From Xestospongia muta (lineage: Eukaryota; Porifera; Demospongiae; Haplosclerida; Petrosiidae), in NCBI GenBank assembly GCA_963693285.1, contig OY848917.1, positions 18,333,745-18,397,744 of the forward strand: a stretch of 64,000 nucleotides of DNA, given 5' to 3'. The translations under genes were made by a program, and so were the position numbers. The notes below the pieces were generated by a model. It did not search any database and was not told where the DNA came from. It worked only from the letters and a program-made list of their open reading frames with translations. Positions 3,514 through 17,307 of this stretch are shown here, piece by piece; within the stretch, counting starts at the first letter, position 1, and every line of letters starts with the position of its first letter.

Positions 3514-3533
3514 ATGGCAGATAGCGGTAATAG
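3514..3533 (+). other. Severed original start of the Argonaute coding sequence
   Basis: ATG GCA GAT AGC GGT AAT AG lies directly against the left end of the MULE. The last eight bases, GGTAATAG, recur at 8296-8303 directly against the right end, in the same codon phase, where Argonaute continues as GGT AAT AGA GGA. Joined across the transposon this gives an uninterrupted Met-Ala-Asp-Ser-Gly-Asn-Arg-Gly start. This is best read as the pre-insertion first codons of the gene, with the eight bases as target-site duplication. Confidence 0.65.
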
Positions 3534-3575
3534 TAGTGCCATTAGCTGGAAAGTTAGGCATAAATTTTTAACCCC
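3534..3575. repeat. MULE left terminal inverted repeat
   Basis: Read inwards, this end contains GCCATTAGC, then TGGAAAGTTAGGCA, then TAAATTTTTAACCCC. The reverse complement of the right end has the same three blocks with small indels. Similarity stops at about 42 bp. Confidence 0.75.
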
Positions 3576-4111
3576 CATTCACCACGTTGGACAACTACGC
3601 ATGCGCAGAACGTTACGAACGCGTGTATTCACGTTTTTGCTTTAAGAAAAATGGAAAACAATTCTTTGTACAATTTTGAGGCATTTTTGCCATCAGGGAT
3701 AATAAATTCAGGAAACAATTGCTACACTAACTGTCAGGTAAGAAACATATACAATAAGATCTGTAGTAACATCAGTATAACAAATAAAACAAACATATAT
3801 TCAACAGCTAGCATTTCATAGTAATGAACATTTCAATATACTCAGAGTTATGTCTGTATAAATATCTTCGTTCATTGTGTACTTCCTTTAAGTACAACAG
3901 CTCACAAACAGTTATTTCTTCTAACATGATCATTCAAAGTCTACAAAGTAAGATAATAAGAAGGATTAAAACATATAAAATTGTTAACCACAACAGTGAC
4001 TCATCAGTCATTTCATCCCGGTGAATATCAGGATACTCATGAGTACTTTATCTATTTCATGGATAAATTAACAGAACTGTCGTCAAGGTAACTTATTTGC
4101 ATACATATCAC

Positions 4112-4116
<5 letters not shown>

Positions 4117-4148
<32 letters not shown>
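4117..4148. repeat. (TA)n microsatellite
   Basis: A run of about sixteen TA dinucleotides inside the non-coding left half of the MULE. Confidence 0.95.
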
Positions 4149-4154
<6 letters not shown>

Positions 4155-5421
4155 CATAATTATAGAATTACAGAGTTGATACAAAACAAATTCTTTTTAG
4201 CAGTTACTCAAACAAGTTTGTGGTCAAGTTAATGATGTGTATTGGTATTATTACTAAATATATTAGTACTATGTAACAAATGTGGCTATAGTAGTAACAT
4301 ACTACAATCATCAAGTGTTTTGGAACCCTAAAGTGAACGTAAGCAAATCACCTAACTATACATTCATTGTAATACATGAAGGAAAACAAGAATGTCCACT
4401 TGCAAGGTTTAGTAATTGATGAACTGACAACCTGTGAAGGCCTTCATGATTACATATGTGGAGGCTATGTTTGATACATGTATTTATCCAGCTCATGTAC
4501 ACACTGATTTAATATATATTATAGATGTAGAAGTCATGGAGAGTGTACAAAATCATTAGTGATCTCCAGATATCCAGAGTTTCTTTGCATTCATATTACT
4601 AAAAAATCAACTAATTTAACACAGTATGTTAGATATACATGTACACATATCATTACTTTATATACATGATATCTTAGCACTGCCTTGCCAACTGTCCAAG
4701 TGCAGGTACATTTCATATATATAATACAAAATAAAATGAATTTGATTATCATCAATTTAGCAAACGGCTTTGAAAGTAGGCAACTGATACTACAGACTCA
4801 CAGGGATGATCAATTATTTACCAGTTGGAAGGCATTATACTTGCTTCATTCGTTCTAAATATGATAACACTCAGTGGTTCTACATCAATGACAGCTCTGT
4901 ATGTATACTATTAATATAACCATGTCCATAAGATACCACTGGTATGATCACAGGTAATTCCAGTCAGTACTGTTACAGTTACACAACAGGATCAATGGTC
5001 AATTAATGTATATACTTAAAACTGACAACCAAAACTTTCCATAGGCATTATAATGTGAGACAAAGACTCTTATACTCTCCAATCCCTGAAGGGTTTAGTT
5101 ATCAACTAGTTTTTTAGAGCATCCATCTGCCAAAAGTCTCCATCTTCCTATTATTACTGAGGAAGGTGTCACATCTAATTTACTAACTCAAAAAACCCTA
5201 TCACATCACTATCAAACTCAGGTAGTATGTTAGAAGATATAAACAAATAAACAGTCAATGTGTAGGAATATATGATGGCAACAATTTGTTATCTCTACAA
5301 AAACTCAAGGAAAGAAGTCACCCTCATTGAGAAAAGATGTTACAAGTACAATGAGCTCAGGTTAGTAATACTGTAGAGAGTAACAATGAATTGACCATCT
5401 ATTACTTCAGGTGAAAGTCCA

Positions 5422-7944
5422 ATGATAACAGACAAGCAATCATGTAAACAATTAAAACCCCTCTTATTTAAAAGGAAATCAAACATTGGCAACCTCACCT
5501 GTTCTTTTTGCAACAAGACTTACACACATAAGAGCAATCTATCCAAACACATTCATGACAAACATAGTGCCAATATCCAAAGGGGTAGCATCACCTGTAG
5601 TAAATGTAATGAAAGGTAAATCGTAACAATATCAATATTCAAAACTACATCTCATTTTTCTAAAATTCAACGTTTACAACTCTACAAAAACTTATTCATC
5701 ATCTACAAGACAACCATCAAATGAAGATAGAGGTAACAAATATTGAGTTTGATAGTATGGAGGCATTCATTCGGTGGAAGGAGGACATTGAAAGCTCCAC
5801 TCATTCAAGTTATGTACTAAAGTGTGCACCAACAATATCCAATGAAACAAAGGTTTGGTATTATTATTGCAACAGAGCAGGTGTATATAAACTTGATGGT
5901 AAAGGCAAGCGTCAGCTAAAGACACAAGGCACTGCAAAAATTGGGTGCCAGTGCATAGCACATTTACGAGTCTCACAGCATCTACTTACACAAAAGATCT
6001 CTGTACGATATTGCCCAACACATTACAACCATGATTTAAAGTTAGCTTTTCTTAGACTACCTCAAAAAAAAGATTAGATATTGCCAATAAATTAGAACAA
6101 GGTGTATGCATAGACCTTATATTAGATGACATCCGAGACTCAGTTGATGGTGGCATAGACAGACAACATCTTATTACTCGGCAAGATGCTCACAATATCA
6201 AATACCAATATAATATAGAAGGCATTACTAGACATTAAAATGATCTAACCAGTGTCACTGCATGGGTTATTGAAATGCAATCACTAGATTATAACCCTAT
6301 ACTTCTCTTTAAGAAACAAGGTGACAAGCAGCCCGATGGAATGGATAATTTCGCTGATAATGACTTTTTACTATGTATACAGACACAATTTCAACGAGAC
6401 TTGTTACTTAAATTTGGTAATAACACCATATGCATGGATGCAACACATGGAACAAACATGTATGACTTTCATTTAATTACAGTAATGACTGTTGATGAGT
6501 ATGGAGTAGGACTGCCTGTAACCTGGATGATTTGTAACAGAGAAGACACTTCGGCATTAATTATTTTTTTTAAGAGCAATAAAAGATAAGTGTGGCACTA
6601 TCGCTCCTTGCTGGTTATGTCTGATGATGCAGAGCAGTATTTTAATGCTTGGCAAGGTGTTTTCGGAGGTAGTGATACTCGTAAAGTAATCTGTGTGTGG
6701 CATGTACATAGGGCTTGGAGAAAGGTTATTAAAGAGCACATAGTACTTAAAGATCAAGTGACAATCTATAATTTACTCTGCACTTTAATTATGGAACGTG
6801 AGGAGGCTAAGTTTTGTACTTTATTACAAGAATTTTTAACTTACATTTTTAACAATCACGAGAGATTTCATACTTATTTTAACGCAAACTATTGTACAAG
6901 GTTGCATGATTGGGCTACATGCTACAGAGTGGGATCCGCTGTAAATACAAATATGTTTTTAGAGGCTTTTCATAGAGTTTTAAAAATAGTATACTTACAT
7001 CATAAACAGAATAGACGTCTGGATAGTATTCTTGTAGCCTTAATTAAAATAACTAGAAACACGGCGTTTGAAAGGATGAGAAAGTTGGAAATGGGAAAAA
7101 ACAGCCACAGGATATGTGAAATCATGTAGCGCCATTAATCAGCCAATAAACTATTGTCAACTTCAATTACATCTATAAATAACAAGAAATGGAAAGTTAA
7201 CTCTCAGAATGTACAACATACACATTATGTTGTTGAAAAGTTAGAGGAAAGCTGTGATTGTAAAGTAATATGCCATGACTGCCAAATTTGTCCACATGCT
7301 TACACATGTACATGTTTAGATGCTACTCTACATGCTACTATATGTAAACATGTACATTTAGTACATATGAATACCAGCAACCACTTTTTCTCCAATGAAA
7401 GAACATCATCAGACAGGGATTATTTATACCTTTCTAATGTACTCTCTTCAAAAAGGAAGAAAACAGACCTGGAGACAGCAAAAGAATCACTGTTATTGAA
7501 AGTACATTCATTAGAAATGGCAATTAGAGAAACTAAGAGAATGCAATAAAGTAAATGCTATACAGGCAGTAAATAAACGTGTGCAAGCAGCTATAACAAT
7601 GTTTGATGCACTTAAGAAGACAGTGACAAAATACTTCCTGTTAAGATCTTGCCAAATGCAAACAGTGAAAGGCAAACAAGATTTTTTTTTACAAAAAAGC
7701 GAAGACAAACACCAACAACATTATCAAAGCCATCGAGACAGGATAGCAACCTATGTAAATCAAAGATTGTAAAAAAGAGCCTCTATTTTGTGGTGCTTGT
7801 TTTAAAGAGAATGACAGCAATCACACCAATGTTGAAGTCAGCTGGATTCAGTGTGATATCTGTTCTATGTGGCTTCATTTATCATGCACATTACCAAAAC
7901 TTACACACTCACCTGTGAATTATACATGTCATCTCTGTAACTAG
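5422..7944 (+). pseudogene. MULE transposase: C2H2 fingers, MULE domain, SWIM and PHD fingers; decayed
   Basis: Reading through the frame breaks gives a multidomain transposase. A C2H2 finger (CSFCNKTYTHKSNLSKHIHDKH, 5501-5566) is followed by a second (CSKC...HHLQDNH) split by an intron-like gap at about 5617-5670 that lacks a clean AG acceptor. Next is a FLYWCH/FAR1-like cysteine-rich region (5790-6060), then the MULE core with MDATHGTNMYDFHL at 6433 and CVWHVHRAWRKV near 6690. A SWIM finger (CTCLDATLHATICKHVH) follows near 7308-7360, and a PHD finger C4HC3 (CGACF...CDICSMWLHLSC...CHLC) ends at TAG 7942-7944. Breaks: a frameshift in the A-run near 6065, an in-frame TAA near 6237, a frameshift in the T-run near 6565, and further shifts near 7125, 7547 and 7640. 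The ATG at 5422 follows a CAG|G acceptor-like site, so the true N-terminus may lie in an earlier exon. Confidence 0.82.
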
Positions 7945-8088
7945 GAAACACTTATGAACTTTGATTAGCTATTATAATAAATATTAAAATCATACATAAT
8001 GTAGTAATACATCAGTCATCATATCATATAAATTTGTATATCATATTACAAAAGACAAGTGTTAATGAAATTACCTTTAAAGCTTACT

Positions 8089-8176
8089 TATACAACTGGA
8101 GTTTAGTAAGTGCCCTAACAAGTGTTTCTTACCTATACAACTGGAGTCTAGTAAGTGCCCTAACAAGTGTTTCTTT
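8089..8176. repeat. 45-bp tandem duplication near the MULE right end
   Basis: Two near-identical copies of a unit beginning TATACAACTGGAGT and containing AAGTGCCCTAACAAGTGTTT, starting at 8089 and 8134. It is subterminal to the right inverted repeat, a place where transposons often carry repeated transposase-binding motifs; that role is a guess here. Confidence 0.85.
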
Positions 8177-8251
8177 GCCTGTTTGTCGACACGTGCTGGA
8201 TATGTGCTGGATATAGACGGATGTGTCTCACGTGATGTATCGCCGCTAAAA

Positions 8252-8295
8252 GGGGTTAAAAATTAGTGCCTAACTTTCTCCGGCTAATGGCTACT
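8252..8295. repeat. MULE right terminal inverted repeat, containing the present Argonaute ATG
   Basis: Reverse complement of the left end: GGGGTTAAAAATTAGTGCC, then TAACTTTCTCC, then GGCTAATGGC, ending at 8295 before GGTAATAG. The ATG at 8287-8289 used to open the Argonaute frame lies within this terminus and has no counterpart in the same sense at the left end. Confidence 0.75.
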
Positions 8296-11200
8296 GGTAA
8301 TAGAGGAGGCAGAAGGAAAGGACAAGGAGGGGGACGTGGACGTGGACAAAGTCCTAGTCAAGTAGCTGGAATAACTAGAGGTAGAGGACGAGGAGGACCT
8401 AACCATTATCATACAAGACAACCTGGTTTACATCAAAATGACCAATCAAGACCTTCCTCCCAGCAAGACAGTAGAGGAACAAGAGGTAGTGATAGTGCCA
8501 GTCAAAGCTCAAGCATTGATAGAACAGTTAGTGAACAACCATCAAGAAATCAGTCATACCCAAATACACGTTCACAACAAAGAACACTGGAGCCAGCTAT
8601 ACCAATCCCTGCTACTGACACCAGACCAAGTGAGACAAGGAGACAACATATCAGTCAGACAGTCAGAGTCTCTAGTCAGACTTCTCCCTTAAAGACTGAC
8701 ACTACAGGTGCTACTCCTACTGTAACTCAACCTCAGTCATCTCCAGTCTCTACTACACTTACTGTACATGATCCTCCTCCTCGTCCAGGGTTTGGAACAA
8801 AGGGACGTCCTATCCAATTAAGAACTAACCACTTTAAAATTGATCTTCCTCGTGGTAATATATACCACTATGACGTTAGTATTCAGCCTGGAAAATGTCC
8901 TCATCAAATAAATCGTCAAGTTATAAAACAGATAGAAACCAAGTACAAAGATAAATTAGCAGGATGTAAATTAGCCTATGATGGTGTAGCAAATTTGTAT
9001 ACCTCAAAGCCACTCCCATCAGTCAATGGACAAAGTAGAGTGAGTTATTCTATTTGTGTGTTAAATAATTACTTTTTATTAACTAAAAGACAAAAATATA
9101 TTGAGCTAATCTAACAGTCTGTAAATAGAGAAAGATCACGTTACATATGAAAAATGGAATACAAGTCTGTTTACTGGAATATGTTCCCATACTAAAATGA
9201 AAGATTTCTTCACTTTGGTCTAGGGACAAAACAAGATTTTATAAGTGACTATGACATATATAACTTACATTTGAGATTTAGTTATTTGCATTTTATTTTA
9301 GCTACCAAGTTTGTTATCTTATAAATTTTCTATAAACATTAAAGACCCATAGTAAAATTGTCTAATATTTTTGTTTATCTCTTAGAGTGAACTGAAAATA
9401 ACACTTCGAATTGAGAGAGAGAAGGAAAGAGAGTTTACAGTAAGTGGATATAAAGTACTTAGATTATATTATTATAATATATTAATGTTATCTCAGCAGT
9501 ACAAACTACTTATAACATAACATCTACATATATATCTATATTAGGGTGATATGTTTGTACTACATGTAATATGAAGTGTTAGTATATCATACAAGATATT
9601 TTGTTCACAGTACACTTTCAATATTATAGGTATCACTCAAACTTGTTGCTACCATATCACTAGATGTTCTACATCAGTTATCAGTTATGAAGACAACTAC
9701 ATTAGATCAAACACAATCTGCTATTAATGCAATAGATGTTTTATTAAGATGGATACCATCATTGAGGTAAAGGAAAGTTAGTAATAGAGAAATACTTTTA
9801 AATGTCATATGATAAAGTGATGTTTAAAGATTAACAAGTTAACAATAGATCTTGTGTTGTTAATATTACTTATATAGGAAAGTTTACTCTATCTGCTTGT
9901 TAGGTTGTAAAGTGTCAATGATATTAGTATACTTTTAAATACTGTTAATATCATAAGTATTTCTTGCTGAAATTTATTTTTCACAAAACAACAAAATATA
10001 TGAATATTAAATTAACTTAATAATATGACAGAGAGAATCAACCTGAAAACAAAGTCACACATAATAAGTTACTAATGTGATTAAAAAACAACAATTAGAA
10101 TAATGAGATGTTATGTACTTGTACACTATACAAGTACACTTGAATTTAAGGTACAATTTATTGTGAAAAACTACTTCACTACAAATAGATTAATGACAAT
10201 ACATTTTGTTTGATTGTCATGAGCAGTCATACAATACTATCATGTAATATGTAAGGATGAGAATTATATGATTATCATTTTATTTTACTACAGGCTTACA
10301 AGTGTTGGTAGAAGTTTCTTTACTCAACCTAGAGCTACTGAGTGTACTCCACTTGGTGGTGGGAGAGAAGTTTGGTATGGTTATTATCAAAGTGTACGTC
10401 CTACCATGTGGTCAATGACACTGAATTTAGATTGTAAGTTTATGTTGATTAAACCCTATAAATTATCATCTGTAAAATACTAATCATTTTACTTAAGTAG
10501 ACAAAACACAACAGTGGTAGAAAAATGATCTTTGTTTCAAAATTAATATTGTCAGTAGAAGAATGTATACAATTGATAGATGTCAATAGTCACATGTAAC
10601 AAAATATATAACTCAAAACAATAACAGGACTTCATAACATGTTATGTTAACTAGACATTATTATGTAGATGTAAATGATGTATTGTCTACTTTTATAGTG
10701 TCAGCTACTGCCTTTTATAAAGAACAAAGTGTTTTAGACTTTCTTTCTGAAATTGTCAGTGGTGGACGTGGGGGTGGGCGTGGTCGAGAAGGAAGTAGAG
10801 GTAGAGGTGGGTATAGAGATGGACGAGGTGGAGCTAGAGGAGGATTTGAACCAAGTATTCCATCATTTTTATCAGATTCTGAAAGACGTCAGTTTGCAAA
10901 GGAAATTAAAGGTTAGCAACAACATTAATATTGTATTATTATAACACCTAGTAATGGTCCTATTTATATGTCATAGGAAGTTGACTAACACTATTAATAT
11001 CATTGAGATCATTAGCACTGTAACAGTTAGAAGGTTAAACATATCCTTTTATCAAACATTTACCAAATAAAATAAGCAAGCAAAACTTTACAATTTACCA
11101 TATTATTGAATGCGTTCACTCATTGTGTTCTAGGACTAAAGGTGGAAGTAACACATCTTTCTTATCCTCGGAAATATAAAGTTAAAGATGTGACTCATGA

Positions 11201-14200
11201 ACCAGCTTCAAGACTAAGGTATATATTTTATATTATAGCTAAAGTACTATATGTCATAGCAATCATTGAAGAAGGCAACTGGTAAATGTGATTTGTAAGG
11301 ATCATAATTATAAAAGGTTATCCTAAGATTATTTTAGTGGTAGATTGCTAAGCATGAAACTGGAGAGTTAGAAAAGCTATATTGCTACTAAAAGATGTTT
11401 ATGGAAGTCTGAGCTTTGGTGGTCAGTCACACCCAATTTGAAGCACACCTACTAGTAATAATTAAATTCATAGGTTGCAATATTGCATTGGGAGTTGCTT
11501 TATAAGTGTTAATTTAATTTGCTAAGCTCAAAAGTTGCAAACAACTTTATTACAAAACATGATCTAAAACAATTTGGACCACCTGTCTCACATAGTGTGT
11601 CAGTTGAAATTCCTAAGTTTATATAGTTCATACTAAAGGGTTAAATTAAAATGTATAGAATTACACAGAGTAATTCTAACAAACAAGCTAATAATAATGG
11701 TCCTTATGACCAGGAGTACATGAGCATTGTAAAGTGATGCAAACGAGTGTCCAACTCCCTTAACTAACTATTGTCTAATCAAGGCTTAGAAGGTGTTTTG
11801 CATTTTAATAGTTTGTGGTCTGTAACATCTTAGTTAGTTGCACTTTAAATTGATAAAATTTAGTATAAGTATATGAAGCAACAACAACAGCTGAGACCAG
11901 GGTACTCCTGTTCAAGCTAGAGATCTCATTGTTATATTCACATACAAGGTAACTCAAAAGTGTGCTGGTGTTCTACATGAACAAGCCAAAGTCCCTATTT
12001 CTTGTACCACACAGCAAGGAAACCAAAACGTTCGTTACCTTTGTAATAGATGCAAAAATGTGGCAGAAAGCTCTCTGTAAGAACTCTAGTAACTTCTCTT
12101 GCCTGAGATTCATGTTCATGTAGAGCCAGAGAACTCGTCTTGTTGAATAAAAATGTTGTTCAACTGTTTCCACATCTTAAAGGCAAAAGCCTCCATAGCC
12201 TCCAAGTCCAATTCTTTTAAATGTTTCTCAATGTACATAACTTCTTTCTTTCTTTCTTTCTTCATTTTACTCACTATTGTTGATGATAATAATATACATT
12301 ACTTCATCATGTACTTAACAGTAATTATGCTATGTAAGTGTATTTTCCTTATATGGAATAATCATTAACTGTATTTCAACAATGGTTAGAATACAAATAT
12401 AGTGTGAGTTGGAAGCTCCTTTGCAATGCTTATGTGCTCCTGTTGTGACTGATGTAGATAGAGTTAGAATTTTACATAATAGATTTGTTTGTCTTTTACA
12501 GTTTTGATTTTGAAGGTAGACAGTGTACTGTACAAAATTACTTCAAAGAACTGCACAAGAAACCTCTGAGTTATCCTAATCTACCTTGTCTTCATATGGA
12601 TGGTAAAAATCCATCAATATATATACCACTTGAGGTATGTTATAATAATGTACTGTGAAATAAATTGATTTGTTTTAGGTTTGTAAGATATTAGGTCAGA
12701 ACTGTACGAGAAAACTCACTGGTGACCAGACAAGTGAAATGATAAAAGCAACAGCAAGACCAGCTTATGAAAGAGAGAGAGAGATCAAGGAAAGGGTATG
12801 TTTTATTTTAGTTACATAAAAACTTGAAACAATTGTAACTAAAGATTGTTTGAAGATTCTGTTGACATGTCATTACTTTAAATGTGATATAGTAGCTATA
12901 ATTTGATTATACAATAACAGAATAAAACTAGATATATATTTAACATACAATGTACATAGTTAACTACTTGATACATGATCCAAAATAGGACCATGTGGAA
13001 AACAAGCCTGTAGAATTTCTGTATTTATAATAATGTAATTTTGTTAGAATTGTTAGTATTATTATGTATTGTATTGTGTACCTCAGGTTAAAGAGGCTAA
13101 TTTTGCTGGAGATGAATGTCTTCGTGATTTTGGTATCAAGATACATCGAGATATGATGTCAATTGATGGAAGAGTCCTTGATCCACCAAAATTAGAGTAT
13201 AAAGACAAGAAAAATGTCACCCCAGATAGAGGACAATGGGATATGAGAGGAAATCATTTCTTTAAAGGAATTAACATTACCTGTTGGGGTATTATTGTAA
13301 TTCCAAATCAAAGATTCTTTCATGAAGATGCAGTCCAGTAAGTGTAACATAATTACTGGAGTCACTTACTTATAGTTATAGAACCAATGAAACAAACAAA
13401 CAATGGCTTTTGTGTAGTTGTTTTGTTTTGTCTCATGTGTTTGTCCCAGTTTACTAGTTTATACTAGTTTGTAAATGTTTTTGATTTATCTTTTCTCAGT
13501 AAACAATTTCTGATATCCCAGTAAATTCATAGAGGTTGCAATATGCTTTGGGAGTTGCTTTATGAGTGTTAATTTGATTCAAGCAATTGCTGACATGACA
13601 ACTACATGTAGCTGTCTAATTTAAGAAACTGACCCAAACATGTTTGACAATGCATTCTTCATATAATTATGATATATAATTAAATGTTTTGTTTAGTACT
13701 TTTGCTCATGAACTGTCAAAAGCCAGCAGAGAGAAGGGTATGGAAATGACTGAGAGACCAGCAAAAGTCTATTATATCAGACATGATGAAGATTTAGAAA
13801 CTGTGGTCAGACTATTTCAAGAAAAGATTAGTGATCTTCAACTGTTAGTGGTTATTTTGGATGGTACTCGTGGAATTAGTTATAGTAAGTAAATTGGTTA
13901 GTTAACTAACTTACTAGACTTAATACATTAATACTGACACTGACTATAGAGAACCTATAATGTATTACTGACACTGACTATAGAGAACCTATAATGTATT
14001 ACTGACACTGACTATAGAGAACCTATAATGTATTACTGAGACTGACTATAGAGAACGTATAATGTATTACTGAGACTGACTATAGAGAACGTATAATGTA
14101 TTACTGACACTGACTATAGAGAACCTATAATGTATTACTGACACTGACTATAGAGAACCTATAATGTATTACTGACACTGACTATAGAGAACCTATAATG

Positions 14201-14430
14201 TATTGCTGACACTGACTATAGAGAACCTATAATGTATTACTGACACTGACTATAGAGAACCTATAATATATGTTACCTCATAATTTTCCTGATTGATAGG
14301 ACAAACTGGATAATCTATTATTTTAACTTATGAAAATATTTTTTTATGTCATAAAAAATGTGTTATAAGATTAACCTTTAATTACTTTCATCCTACACAA
14401 TTTTTGAATTGCTCTCTCTCTCTCTCTCAC

Positions 14431-14475
<45 letters not shown>

Positions 14476-17307
14476 CACACACACATGTACATTCATACAC
14501 ACACACACACACACACGCACGCACATGTACATTCATACACACACGCGTGCGCGTGCACACACATAACACACAGATCAAGTGAAGAGAGTATGTGATAATT
14601 TAGTTGGTGTACGTACTCAGTGTGTTCAGGTCAAAAATGCACAAAAGGCACACCCTTCTACTATGAAAAATTTGTGTCTTAAAATTAACTCAAAATTAGG
14701 AGGCACAAATTCTGTTGTTCTTAATGAGTAAGTGTTAAAGACATTTATCTATAGAGTTTATATTTAAATGTTACTTTTAGGCTACATATTTTTAAAAAAC
14801 CTATAATTATAATGGGAGCTGATGTCACTCATCCAGCTCCTGGAGATACAAGAAGTCCCTCACTAGCAGCAGTAAGATACATTGTGATATTGTTCTTAAG
14901 ATACCAATCTCCCTCTAGCTTACTGCCAGCTTTGATAGACATGCAATGGAATACAAAGCACAAGTAAAAGTACTCAAACATCGACAGGTACATCATAATA
15001 TAATATATATTTGACATATGTACATCAGTACGTATCACTAGTACTGTAGTCATTTATACATTATAGGACACAAACCTAAACCACTTGTAGTATACAGTGA
15101 TCCTATGAACATTTTATAGTATTTTTCTAACAGTACTGATATTTACTATGTTGGTTTTTTACTTTAGGAAGTATTTGAGATGGAACAACTTGCTGAGATG
15201 ATAAAAGGAATGTTATTGAAGTTCTACTTAAAGTATAACAAACGTTGTAAACCAGAGTGTATTATCTTTTATCGAGATGGTGTCAGTGAAGGCCAATTTA
15301 AAAAGGTGCCTATAAAGCATCTATTGAAATGTCACTAAACTATGCATATATTAGAAGATAGGTTTTACCACGCAGATTAACTGACAGTACAGGTTACAAT
15401 ATTTACTTTGTGTGTATCTAAAATGTAGACACATAGGTTATTTTTAGGCTCTCTCTCCTCATTTTCCATTGTTATTTAAACAGTTATTCCTGCATTGTCC
15501 TAATTTGTAGACAAATAACAAAACTGATCTCTTATTTACTTCAACCAGACAATTTGTGATAATGAGTGATTAAAATTGTATTTTAAAGAGCTGTATTTCC
15601 TATTAGGTTATTGAACAAGAGATTGCAGCCATACAGAAAGCTTGTCGAGACCTAGAGCCAGGTTATCAGCCTGGTATCACATTTTTGGTTGTCCAAAAAC
15701 GCCACCATACAAGATTATTCTGTGCTAACAGAGAAGATCAGGTTACTTCTCAATAATATACTTATGTGTGTTTAGTAGTGACTGTGAATGAAGTACTCTT
15801 CAAATATTGCTCATAATGCTAATTAGCAGCTCATGATGATCCTTTTACAAAATGTTTCCTTCTAATGCGTCATTCTGTACTAACTGAAATATTTAAGCAT
15901 TAATGACATTTATTTATACCGCTAATAATGTTTTTCATACACAATACAACTTATTGAATGAAACACTTGCATCAAAATCACTCTGTGTGTATTAAGTTGT
16001 TGCTGATTACAAACAAGTCACTAATATTAGACATGAACCCATACTGTACTATTTTCATATGTAACTACATGTACATATAATAGTATGTGTATCCACATAT
16101 ACTAGTATACTTTTAGTCAAAACAATAATGATAGGATCTGTAAATGATATAACCTTTTTGTCATTTATTTAGCATGGCAAGGGAGGTAATGTACCAGCTG
16201 GTACTACTGTTGACAGACATATTACGCATCCTACTGAATTTGACTTCTTCCTATGTTCTCATGCTGGAATACAGGTATATTAGATATGTTATGTAGGCCA
16301 TACAACCACATACACTAACATGTAATCTTATATTGAAGATGACATGTGAAAGGTGTTATAATAAACTTTGTTACATAAAAACAAATGTTGAAAGTGAAAC
16401 TACTATTACATATCGTATATGTAGAACTAAAGTATAGTTGCAACCATCTTTGTCAGCCTTTTAATATTATCACAGTAGTGTTAGTCACAAATTAGCTTCA
16501 TACCAATGCAATATATAAATTAATACATAAGTAATAAAGTGTTAACCCTAACAACACGTTTCCATGGTAATTACCTTATTCATAACATATCATACATTAT
16601 AGGGTACTAGTAAGCCTTGTCATTATCATGTGTTATGGGATGATAACAACTTCACTGCTGATGATCTTCAAACATTAACTTACCAACTTTGTCATTGCTA
16701 TGTTCGATGTAATCGTAGTGTGTCCTATCCAGCACCTACTTATTATTCACATCTTGCTGCTTTTAGAGCAAGATATACTTTACAAGACTGGGAGGAAAGG
16801 AAAAGGTAACTAGTTAAATATAATTATCATAAATGTCTTGTTGTTCATGTTATATTGCTATGATTGCAAGTTGTTTGATTTTACAATTCTAGCATTTTAA
16901 AATATTGATCATTCTAAGCAAACCATTAATATTAGCAGAGTATGAACATTAAGTTAACACTTTACAATTATAGTCACTGAGCAATGTAATGATGGTAAAT
17001 GTAACTTTGTTTTATTTTGATGTTCACTAACTTCAAATCCATTCTAGTATACTCTCATTTCGCTAATCAATATGACTAGTACCAATAGCATTCTTTTTGG
17101 AGTATCCCTGATAATTTGATTATTAATTTTAAAATATAATTGTACTTTCAGTACATTTATTATTAGTCATTCTCTTTATTCAGTGGTAGTAGTGATAGTG
17201 CTAGTTCTGTCAGCTACTCAAGTGAAGATCTTGTTAGAGTAATTCCTGATTTACAAAGAGCAATAGAAGTCAATGAATACTTGAAAGACACAATGTACTT
17301 TGTATGA
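8287..17307 (+). CDS. AGO: Argonaute (AGO clade) with N-terminal RG repeats and an internal RGG insertion
   Basis: Small-RNA-guided silencing effector, 18 exons, 1,028 codons. Exons: 8287-9039, 9386-9439, 9630-9766, 10294-10433, 10699-10911, 11134-11218, 12502-12634, 12679-12795, 13087-13337, 13697-13884, 14574-14727, 14781-14871, 14919-14987, 15168-15305, 15607-15741, 16173-16274, 16603-16805, 17184-17307; phases agree throughout. RG-rich residues lie at about 1-50, a Gln/Ser/Thr-rich spacer follows, and the N domain starts near 170 (GRPIQL...KCPHQINR). PAZ lies in exons 5-8. MID has [24 protein letters not shown] carries D756 (GADVTHP), E796 (HRQ-E), D832 ([11 protein letters not shown]) and HYH at 927-929, so the DEDH slicer set is present. 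The chain ends in DTMYFV, resembling the AGO C-terminus. [14 protein letters not shown] and N-domain similarity place it with AGO rather than PIWI. Residues 383-411 form an RGG insertion. The start codon appears to be donated by the flanking MULE. Confidence 0.96.
11463..11525. repeat. Short dispersed repeat, copy in Argonaute intron 6
   Basis: The segment AAATTCATAGGTTGCAATAT followed by TTGGGAGTTGCTTTATAAGTG is nearly repeated at 13521-13585 in intron 9, with about 85-90% identity by eye. It is probably a fragment of an unnamed interspersed repeat. The rest of intron 6 (11219-12501) shows only a (TTTC)n patch near 12243. Confidence 0.65.
13521..13585. repeat. Short dispersed repeat, copy in Argonaute intron 9
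   Basis: Second copy of the segment described at 11463-11525, in the same orientation (TTCATAGAGGTTGCAATATG and TTGGGAGTTGCTTTATGAGTG). Confidence 0.65.
13930..14268. repeat. 34-bp minisatellite in Argonaute intron 10
   Basis: About ten tandem copies of a 34-bp unit built on TACTGACACTGACTATAGAG, ACCTATAATGTAT. Two adjacent copies share the variants GAGACTG and ACGTATAAT; the rest are almost identical, which suggests recent homogenisation. Confidence 0.95.
14432..14570. repeat. (CA)n microsatellite abutting the Argonaute exon 11 acceptor
   Basis: Long CA runs interrupted by TGTACATTCAT blocks and CGCG patches, preceded by a CT run at 14412-14428. It ends only a few bases before the acceptor AACACACAG|ATCAAG (exon starts at 14574). 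Open frames on both strands here are repeat artefacts. Confidence 0.93.

Follow-up and report, generated by a model that had tools for sequence, protein, structure and literature searches.

A transposable element of the MULE superfamily has inserted 12 bp behind the ATG of one copy of an Argonaute gene of the sponge Xestospongia muta, duplicating 8 bp, and the right terminal repeat of this element carries an ATG that is in frame with the remaining part of the gene. The insertion lies in a stretch of 64,000 nucleotides (the window; contig OY848917.1 of assembly GCA_963693285.1, positions 18,333,745 to 18,397,744 of the forward strand), and positions given below are counted from its first letter unless a contig is named. 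The position of the insertion follows a rule that is shared by a whole family of elements, in which at least three types of terminus prefer a site 12 bp behind an ATG in start-codon context, in one orientation and with duplications of 8 or 9 bp. This rule goes beyond what a sequence-only reading of the same stretch had noticed. For the insertion at Argonaute, the family rule, recognition of a word shared by target and terminal repeat, and use of the new ATG, all taken together, we estimate a probability of about 0.72.

The features on which the argument turns, all on the forward strand, are the following.

3514..3525, forward strand: native Argonaute start ATG GCA GAT AGC, severed from its gene (9 of 9 paralogs have ATGGC(A/T)GATAGT at this place).
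3526..3533, forward strand: left 8-bp target duplication, GGTAATAG (sequence and paralog comparison).
3534..8295, forward strand: MULE-type element of 4762 bp, oriented like the Argonaute gene (duplication, inverted arms, shared ends and domains).
3534..3575, forward strand: left terminal inverted repeat (inverted arms; its first base is the start of 10 of 18 other matches).
8252..8295, forward strand: right terminal inverted repeat (inverted arms; its last base is the stop of 14 of 19 other right ends).
8287..8295, forward strand: element-supplied ATG GCT ACT (Met-Ala-Thr), in frame with Argonaute (sequence and reading frame).
8296..8303, forward strand: right 8-bp target duplication (sequence and paralog comparison).
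8287..17307, forward strand: Argonaute gene, modelled with at least 17 exons, exon 1 being 8287-9040 (frames, domain and paralog matches).

The word GGTAATAG is present twice, at 3526-3533 and 8296-8303, on either side of the element. The left copy is preceded by the 12 nt of the native start, with its ATG at 3514-3516, and the right copy by the 9 nt that begin with the element ATG at 8287-8289, so that both copies are in phase 0 relative to their own ATG. When the flanks of the element are joined, they align across the junction with all nine tandem Argonaute paralogs that lack the element. In each of these the start reads ATGGC(A/T)GATAGT and encodes Met-Ala-Asp-Ser-Gly-Asn; seven have ATGGCAGATAGTGGCAAT, and L008 and L017 each differ by a single base (L numbers denote loci). 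Therefore, the element entered 12 bp behind the ATG, and 8 bp of the target were duplicated. A chance repeat was considered and rejected, both because the junction aligns with the nine paralogs and because the same ends with duplications are found at other loci. The sequence-only reading had proposed a MULE that entered 12 bp into the coding sequence, with an 8-bp duplication against inverted termini and with Met-Ala-Thr replacing Met-Ala-Asp-Ser; the positions and phases that it gave are confirmed, the nine paralogs in this genome begin with Met-Ala-Asp-Ser, and other genomic copies of the element have the same ends, so that neither of the two findings which that reading named as refuting occurs within this genome.

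The ends of the element are defined by comparison with its relatives in the genome, which comprises 158 Mb in 28 contigs. The left 227 bp have 18 other matches, of which 10 start at the counterpart of base 3534 and one starts a single base further on. For the right end, 19 other copies were aligned; 14 finish exactly at the counterpart of 8295 and the remaining five within two bases of it, and several minus-strand left ends that were misplaced in this alignment were set aside. The inverted arms are 3549-3575/8252-8278 (27 nt, 93%) and 3538-3550/8279-8291 (13 nt, 92%). The termini read TAGTGCCATTAGC and, as the reverse complement of the right end, AGTAGCCATTAGC, both with GCCATTAGC at offset 4 (TAGT-GCCATTAGC and AGTA-GCCATTAGC, respectively). 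A pattern made from the termini has 142 matches in the genome, whereas the reversed pattern has none. The matches include at least three types of terminus: that of the window (TAGTGCC/AGTAGCC, GTTAGGC), a second (GACAGCC, GTTATCC) and a third (GAGTGCC).

Of these 142 matches, 90 ends were read, and collapsing 19 shared flanks left 71 non-redundant flanks; the left end of the window element, which the pattern missed, is outside this set. An ATG stands exactly 20 bp from the element end in 16 of the 71 flanks and 21 bp from it in another 7 (23 in total), against a mean of 0.6 and a maximum of 4 at other offsets from 3 to 25. The opposite word, CAT, occurs at 20 and 21 bp in 0 and 1 of the flanks. 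Since the first hint of the spacing came from window-type ends, which are included in the 71, the 46 ends of other types provide an independent test: 15 of them have an ATG at 20 or 21 bp (p ~1e-19 against their own background), as have 8 of the 25 window-type ends (p ~1e-7). The two offsets reflect the length of the duplication, 8 or 9 bp. A recognisable duplication of either length is present in 13 of 16 paired ends, the window's pair included, and in 11 of these 13 insertions the ATG begins exactly 12 bp before the duplication. The two that depart from the rule are L107, with the ATG at -11, and L096, with TTG at -12; the duplications of L148 and L096 were read by eye, and L148/L149 could also be read as having a longer one. 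In L073/L075 and L076/L074 the ends match crosswise, suggesting that an inversion has taken place between two copies.

The ATGs that are targeted resemble start codons. Of the 23, 20 have A at -3, 18 have G at +4 and 17 have C at +5, and the second codon is GCN in 13, TCT in 4, GAG in 3 and another in 3. The consensus of these flanks is AAAATGGC, and the context is similar to that of start codons and also to the core of a YY1 site (see below). In Argonaute the target is a true start codon. At L106 the target frame reads MAYKGSLLLFVVFLVGSQAAVYQRTVRYDDEVLVR, a hydrophobic leader that is followed, by eye, by a donor-like ATG/GTAAGT, and this looks like what is expected of the first exon of a putative secreted protein. 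Hydrophobic leaders also stand behind the target ATG of L110 (24 codons) and L076 (34 codons). The frame is open across the 22 codons examined at L148 and stops after 15 at L107. Thus, the family targets an ATG in start-codon context, and only some of these ATGs open long frames.

Regarding the new start, all 30 long end loci have an ATG at 9 nt from the junction, and in 24 of them it reads ATGGC. This outcome is partly built in because the terminus pattern contains CCATTAG; the duplications fix the position of the junction independently of that pattern. Both spacings, 12 and 9, are divisible by three. An insertion 12 bp behind a true start codon therefore exchanges it in frame, regardless of how long the duplication is. 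The N-terminus so encoded is Met-Ala-Thr for Argonaute; for L106 and L110, the end on the gene side encodes Met-Ala-Val. The native ATG at 3514 now reads 43 codons and stops within the element, and use of the ATG at 8287 would require a transcript that starts in the right end.

The following sequence of events may explain these observations. A word of related sequence, present both in the target and in the terminal repeat, would be recognised by the transposase or by a host factor with affinity for AANATGGC (YY1, for example), and the element would then integrate at a fixed distance from this word. Where the word lies on a real start codon, the 12/9 spacing would exchange the start in frame, and transcription beginning in the right end would let the new ATG serve this Argonaute copy. 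A further step would be that the lineage has evolved such an exchange, with target choice and ATG-bearing termini matched to each other, perhaps together with an outward promoter. This we regard as unlikely. Agreement of the two spacings modulo three is a one-in-three event without selection, so that design is not shown. If such an exchange had evolved, the element could exploit the chromatin close to promoters and yet either spare host gene expression or take it over, also that of a silencing Argonaute.

Several observations weigh against the proposed start-codon replacement or the rule behind it. In 6 of the 12 joined sites (L066, L073, L087, L097, L147 and L137) the frame opened by the ATG ends within ten codons, and many of the targets may therefore be upstream ATGs of short frames or ATGs in non-coding sequence. 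Counted across all 23 flanks, stops show no deficit in this frame (5 in 122 codons, compared with 5 and 8 in 115). Three of the 16 pairs (L099/L100, L069/L070 and L114/L115) have no clean duplication by eye. An ATG at the key offset is absent from 48 of the 71 flanks, some of which are the opposite side of an insertion; as only one side can face the ATG, the 23 positive ends may represent the majority of insertions. With C at -3, the context of the new ATG is weaker than that of the native one. There are further ATGs at 61, 75 and 94 bp from the junction, which would come first if transcription began further inside the element. Finally, the window copy of Argonaute differs from its paralogs upstream of 3424, so its native promoter may differ too.

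The same stop counts favour another view, to which we give even odds: the element would seek the AANATGGC word near the 5' ends of transcripts as a DNA motif, with no link to translation, and the keeping of frame at true starts would be a one-in-three by-product of the 12/9 spacings. The target consensus fits this as well. The translation initiator of short 5' untranslated regions (TISU), SAASATGGCGGC, is described as a YY1 site at transcript 5' ends, at main and short upstream open reading frames and also at those of long non-coding RNAs (PMC5577775, PMC7798263). It shares the core AA.ATGGC with the targets, which differ from it in having mostly A at -1, where TISU has G or C, and in lacking a clear GGC behind; YY1 is a putative binder. 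Like the base at -1, the ATGTCT (Met-Ser) of 4 of the 23 targets, which departs from ATGGC, and the real-looking frames that open at several sites speak against pure motif targeting.

The Argonaute gene belongs to the AGO clade rather than to PIWI: its best solved relative is human AGO2 (818 bits), whereas the best Piwi scores 141 bits, and exon 1 contains an ArgoN domain. Among the 120 Argonaute matches listed, the highest identity is 56%, to A0A1X7VUD3 of Amphimedon queenslandica, and the Amphimedon protein begins Met-Ser-Asp. The end of exon 1 (9040) was set by hand, and a further exon near 14919-14988 is outside the gene model. Catalytic motifs, including GADVTHP and YRDG, can be read by eye in the predicted protein when it is aligned with human AGO2; slicing capacity is putative. 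At least ten near-identical AGO-clade genes stand in tandem on contig C1 between 17.62 and 18.35 Mb, mostly about 65-90 kb apart. Ten copies of exon 1, the window's included, match at 91-98%, and nine keep an undisturbed start. The suggestion that an essential silencing gene has come to depend on a transposon is thus unsupported.

With so many copies it is also conceivable that the insertion simply silenced a redundant one, that the element ATG was never used and that the frame is intact because the event is recent; we hold this to be possible, at slightly less than an even chance. The duplication is perfect, exon 1 has only three private codons against seven paralogs (one synonymous, two not, too few for a test of selection), and the transposase frame is already broken, though possibly this happened before insertion. 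Against silencing speak, at the level of sequence, the predicted gene body, which is open and retains the catalytic motifs, and exon 1, which has neither a stop nor an indel relative to the seven paralogs. That the element is spliced out as an intron and the native start is still used seems very improbable. A donor-like GCG/GTAATA at 3527 scores 4.5, and reading on from an acceptor at 8306 would keep the frame, but no acceptor at 7900-8420 scores above 2, as compared to 7.2-13.7 for the real acceptors of the gene (the scoring matrix was built from 15 introns of this Argonaute gene only). Near-identical tandem copies are difficult to assemble, but an assembly artefact is practically dismissed, since other contigs have independent loci at which these ends recur with exact duplications of 8-9 bp.

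Upstream of the genes in the array, the DNA falls into at least three types. Similarity between the window copy and its paralogs extends over only about 110 bp there, and so this copy has upstream DNA of its own; L002 shares 417-1196 bp adjoining the start with L004, L005, L007, L008, L017 and L018; and L003 and L006 have 1.5 kb in common and agree with L002 over about 114 bp adjoining the start. At 2348-2810, upstream of the gene, the window contains a fragment of an Argonaute exon that has diverged (73% across 483 bases of the query), and similar fragments lie upstream of other tandem copies. On the same contig, a third-type end (L150, C1:18648963, in the interval C1:18648941-18649026) stands 17 bp behind a TTGG in an Argonaute-like upstream segment. 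This TTGG is ATGG in the paralogs, the spacing is 3 bp off the usual one, and L150 is a second, independent insertion at an Argonaute-family start.

Inside the element the following further features were found, all on the forward strand.

3598..3607, forward strand: palindrome CGCATGCGCA near the left end, presumably NRF1-like (sequence).
3651..3737, forward strand: short open frame followed by a donor CAG/GTAAGA, candidate first exon of the transposase gene (donor score 8.1).
5395..5619, forward strand: C2H2-like piece (below the curated cut-off).
5664..7549, forward strand: transposase remains in broken frames, FAR1-like, ZSWIM1-3 RNase H-like and MULE (profile matches).
7759..7944, forward strand: PHD-finger-like C-terminus (23.8 bits against a cut-off of 24).
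8228..8235, forward strand: TCACGTGA, which we take to be an E-box, candidate part of an outward promoter (CACGTG recurs at right ends).

The element is a member of the MULE superfamily by its terminal inverted repeats, its 8-bp duplication and the transposase domain of a close relative. In the window, the ZSWIM1-3 RNase H-like match at 6239-6589 exceeds its cut-off and the FAR1, MULE, C2H2 and PHD pieces stay below theirs, PF10551 (MULE) reaching 23.1 and 19.0 bits under a cut-off of 27.6. Copy L039 (C1:12394459-12400381), which is about 95% identical to the window element and has a single frame of 760 amino acids, passes the same cut-off with 45.9 bits; its PHD match is 16.3 bits. A search with L039 gave 231 matches at E <= 1e-10 among 2680 candidates, and of the 120 matches listed seven have a source name, five of these being 'hypothetical protein'. 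The donor behind the frame at 3651..3737 scores inside the range of the real donors of the Argonaute gene, and this frame is possibly the first exon of the transposase gene. Among the 30 end loci, TGCGCATGCG lies 75 bp from the junction in 8, every one left-type, and CACGTG lies 67 bp from it in 10, every one right-type; the copy at 8228..8235 is possibly part of an outward promoter. In several right ends the ATG at 9 nt is preceded, in frame, by another at 30 nt from the junction; the window copy has GTG at that place. Near the right end a 45-bp repeat forms a tandem pair (96%) at 8083-8172, and a check for a Rehavkus-type minisatellite before the 3' end gave only this two-copy repeat.

Five loci on five contigs (L111, L129, L131, L138 and L145) have the same element end and flank. 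On C9, C10 and C11 the locus lies no more than about 30 kb from where the contig begins, a placement suggestive of subtelomeric spread. Twelve other ends (L094, L095, L101, L116-L119, L123, L139, L140, L151 and L152) have the common flank ...AATTAGCTAATCAT(A/G)G..., and therefore the element apparently spread inside another repeat with an ATGG-like word. At L079/L080 (C8:7669778-7669858), a single ATGG word is enclosed by two right ends that point towards each other with 25 bp between them.

If the element ATG is used, the combination of spacing and terminal ATG would be a simple and testable way in which insertions at coding starts are tolerated, and host proteins would thereby acquire new N-termini, and promoters perhaps also. 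The numerous copies amount to a natural collection of insertions whose frame before insertion is known, and with them the takeover of host expression by transposons can be studied, and a silencing gene is among the host genes that were hit.

An element end that acts on a neighbouring gene is not without parallel: Mu1 is said to have an outward-reading promoter, and a Mutator end reportedly starts transcription into a host gene. The title of the 1991 paper by Barkan and Martienssen (cited in PMC5765357 and PMC4287451) speaks of a promoter, without mention of an in-frame start codon. MULEs include the animal groups Phantom, Spectre and Ghost and make duplications of 8-11 bp, and the element described here resembles MULE/MuDR in transposase type, terminal inverted repeats and its duplications of 8-9 bp; unlike for the present family, no ATG-relative target rule for known MULEs is given in the available part of that account (PMC6446971). 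In the available part of its table, the outgroup Rehavkus alone is listed with a PHD finger, for which the match in the element is weak. Maize Mu is similar in its preference for gene 5' ends, described as regions 5' of ATGs and open chromatin marked by H3K4me3, with a weak consensus (PMC2774946). MuTAnT of Medicago is likewise a MULE with a sequence-specific target, which consists of TA microsatellites (PMC4486113). In search listings of the open-licence literature, no report was found of a fixed spacing to an ATG together with an in-frame ATG in the terminal repeat. Thus, transposons that favour gene 5' ends are known already, and what the sponge elements add is a base-exact spacing to the ATG and a terminal repeat that brings an in-frame ATG of its own.

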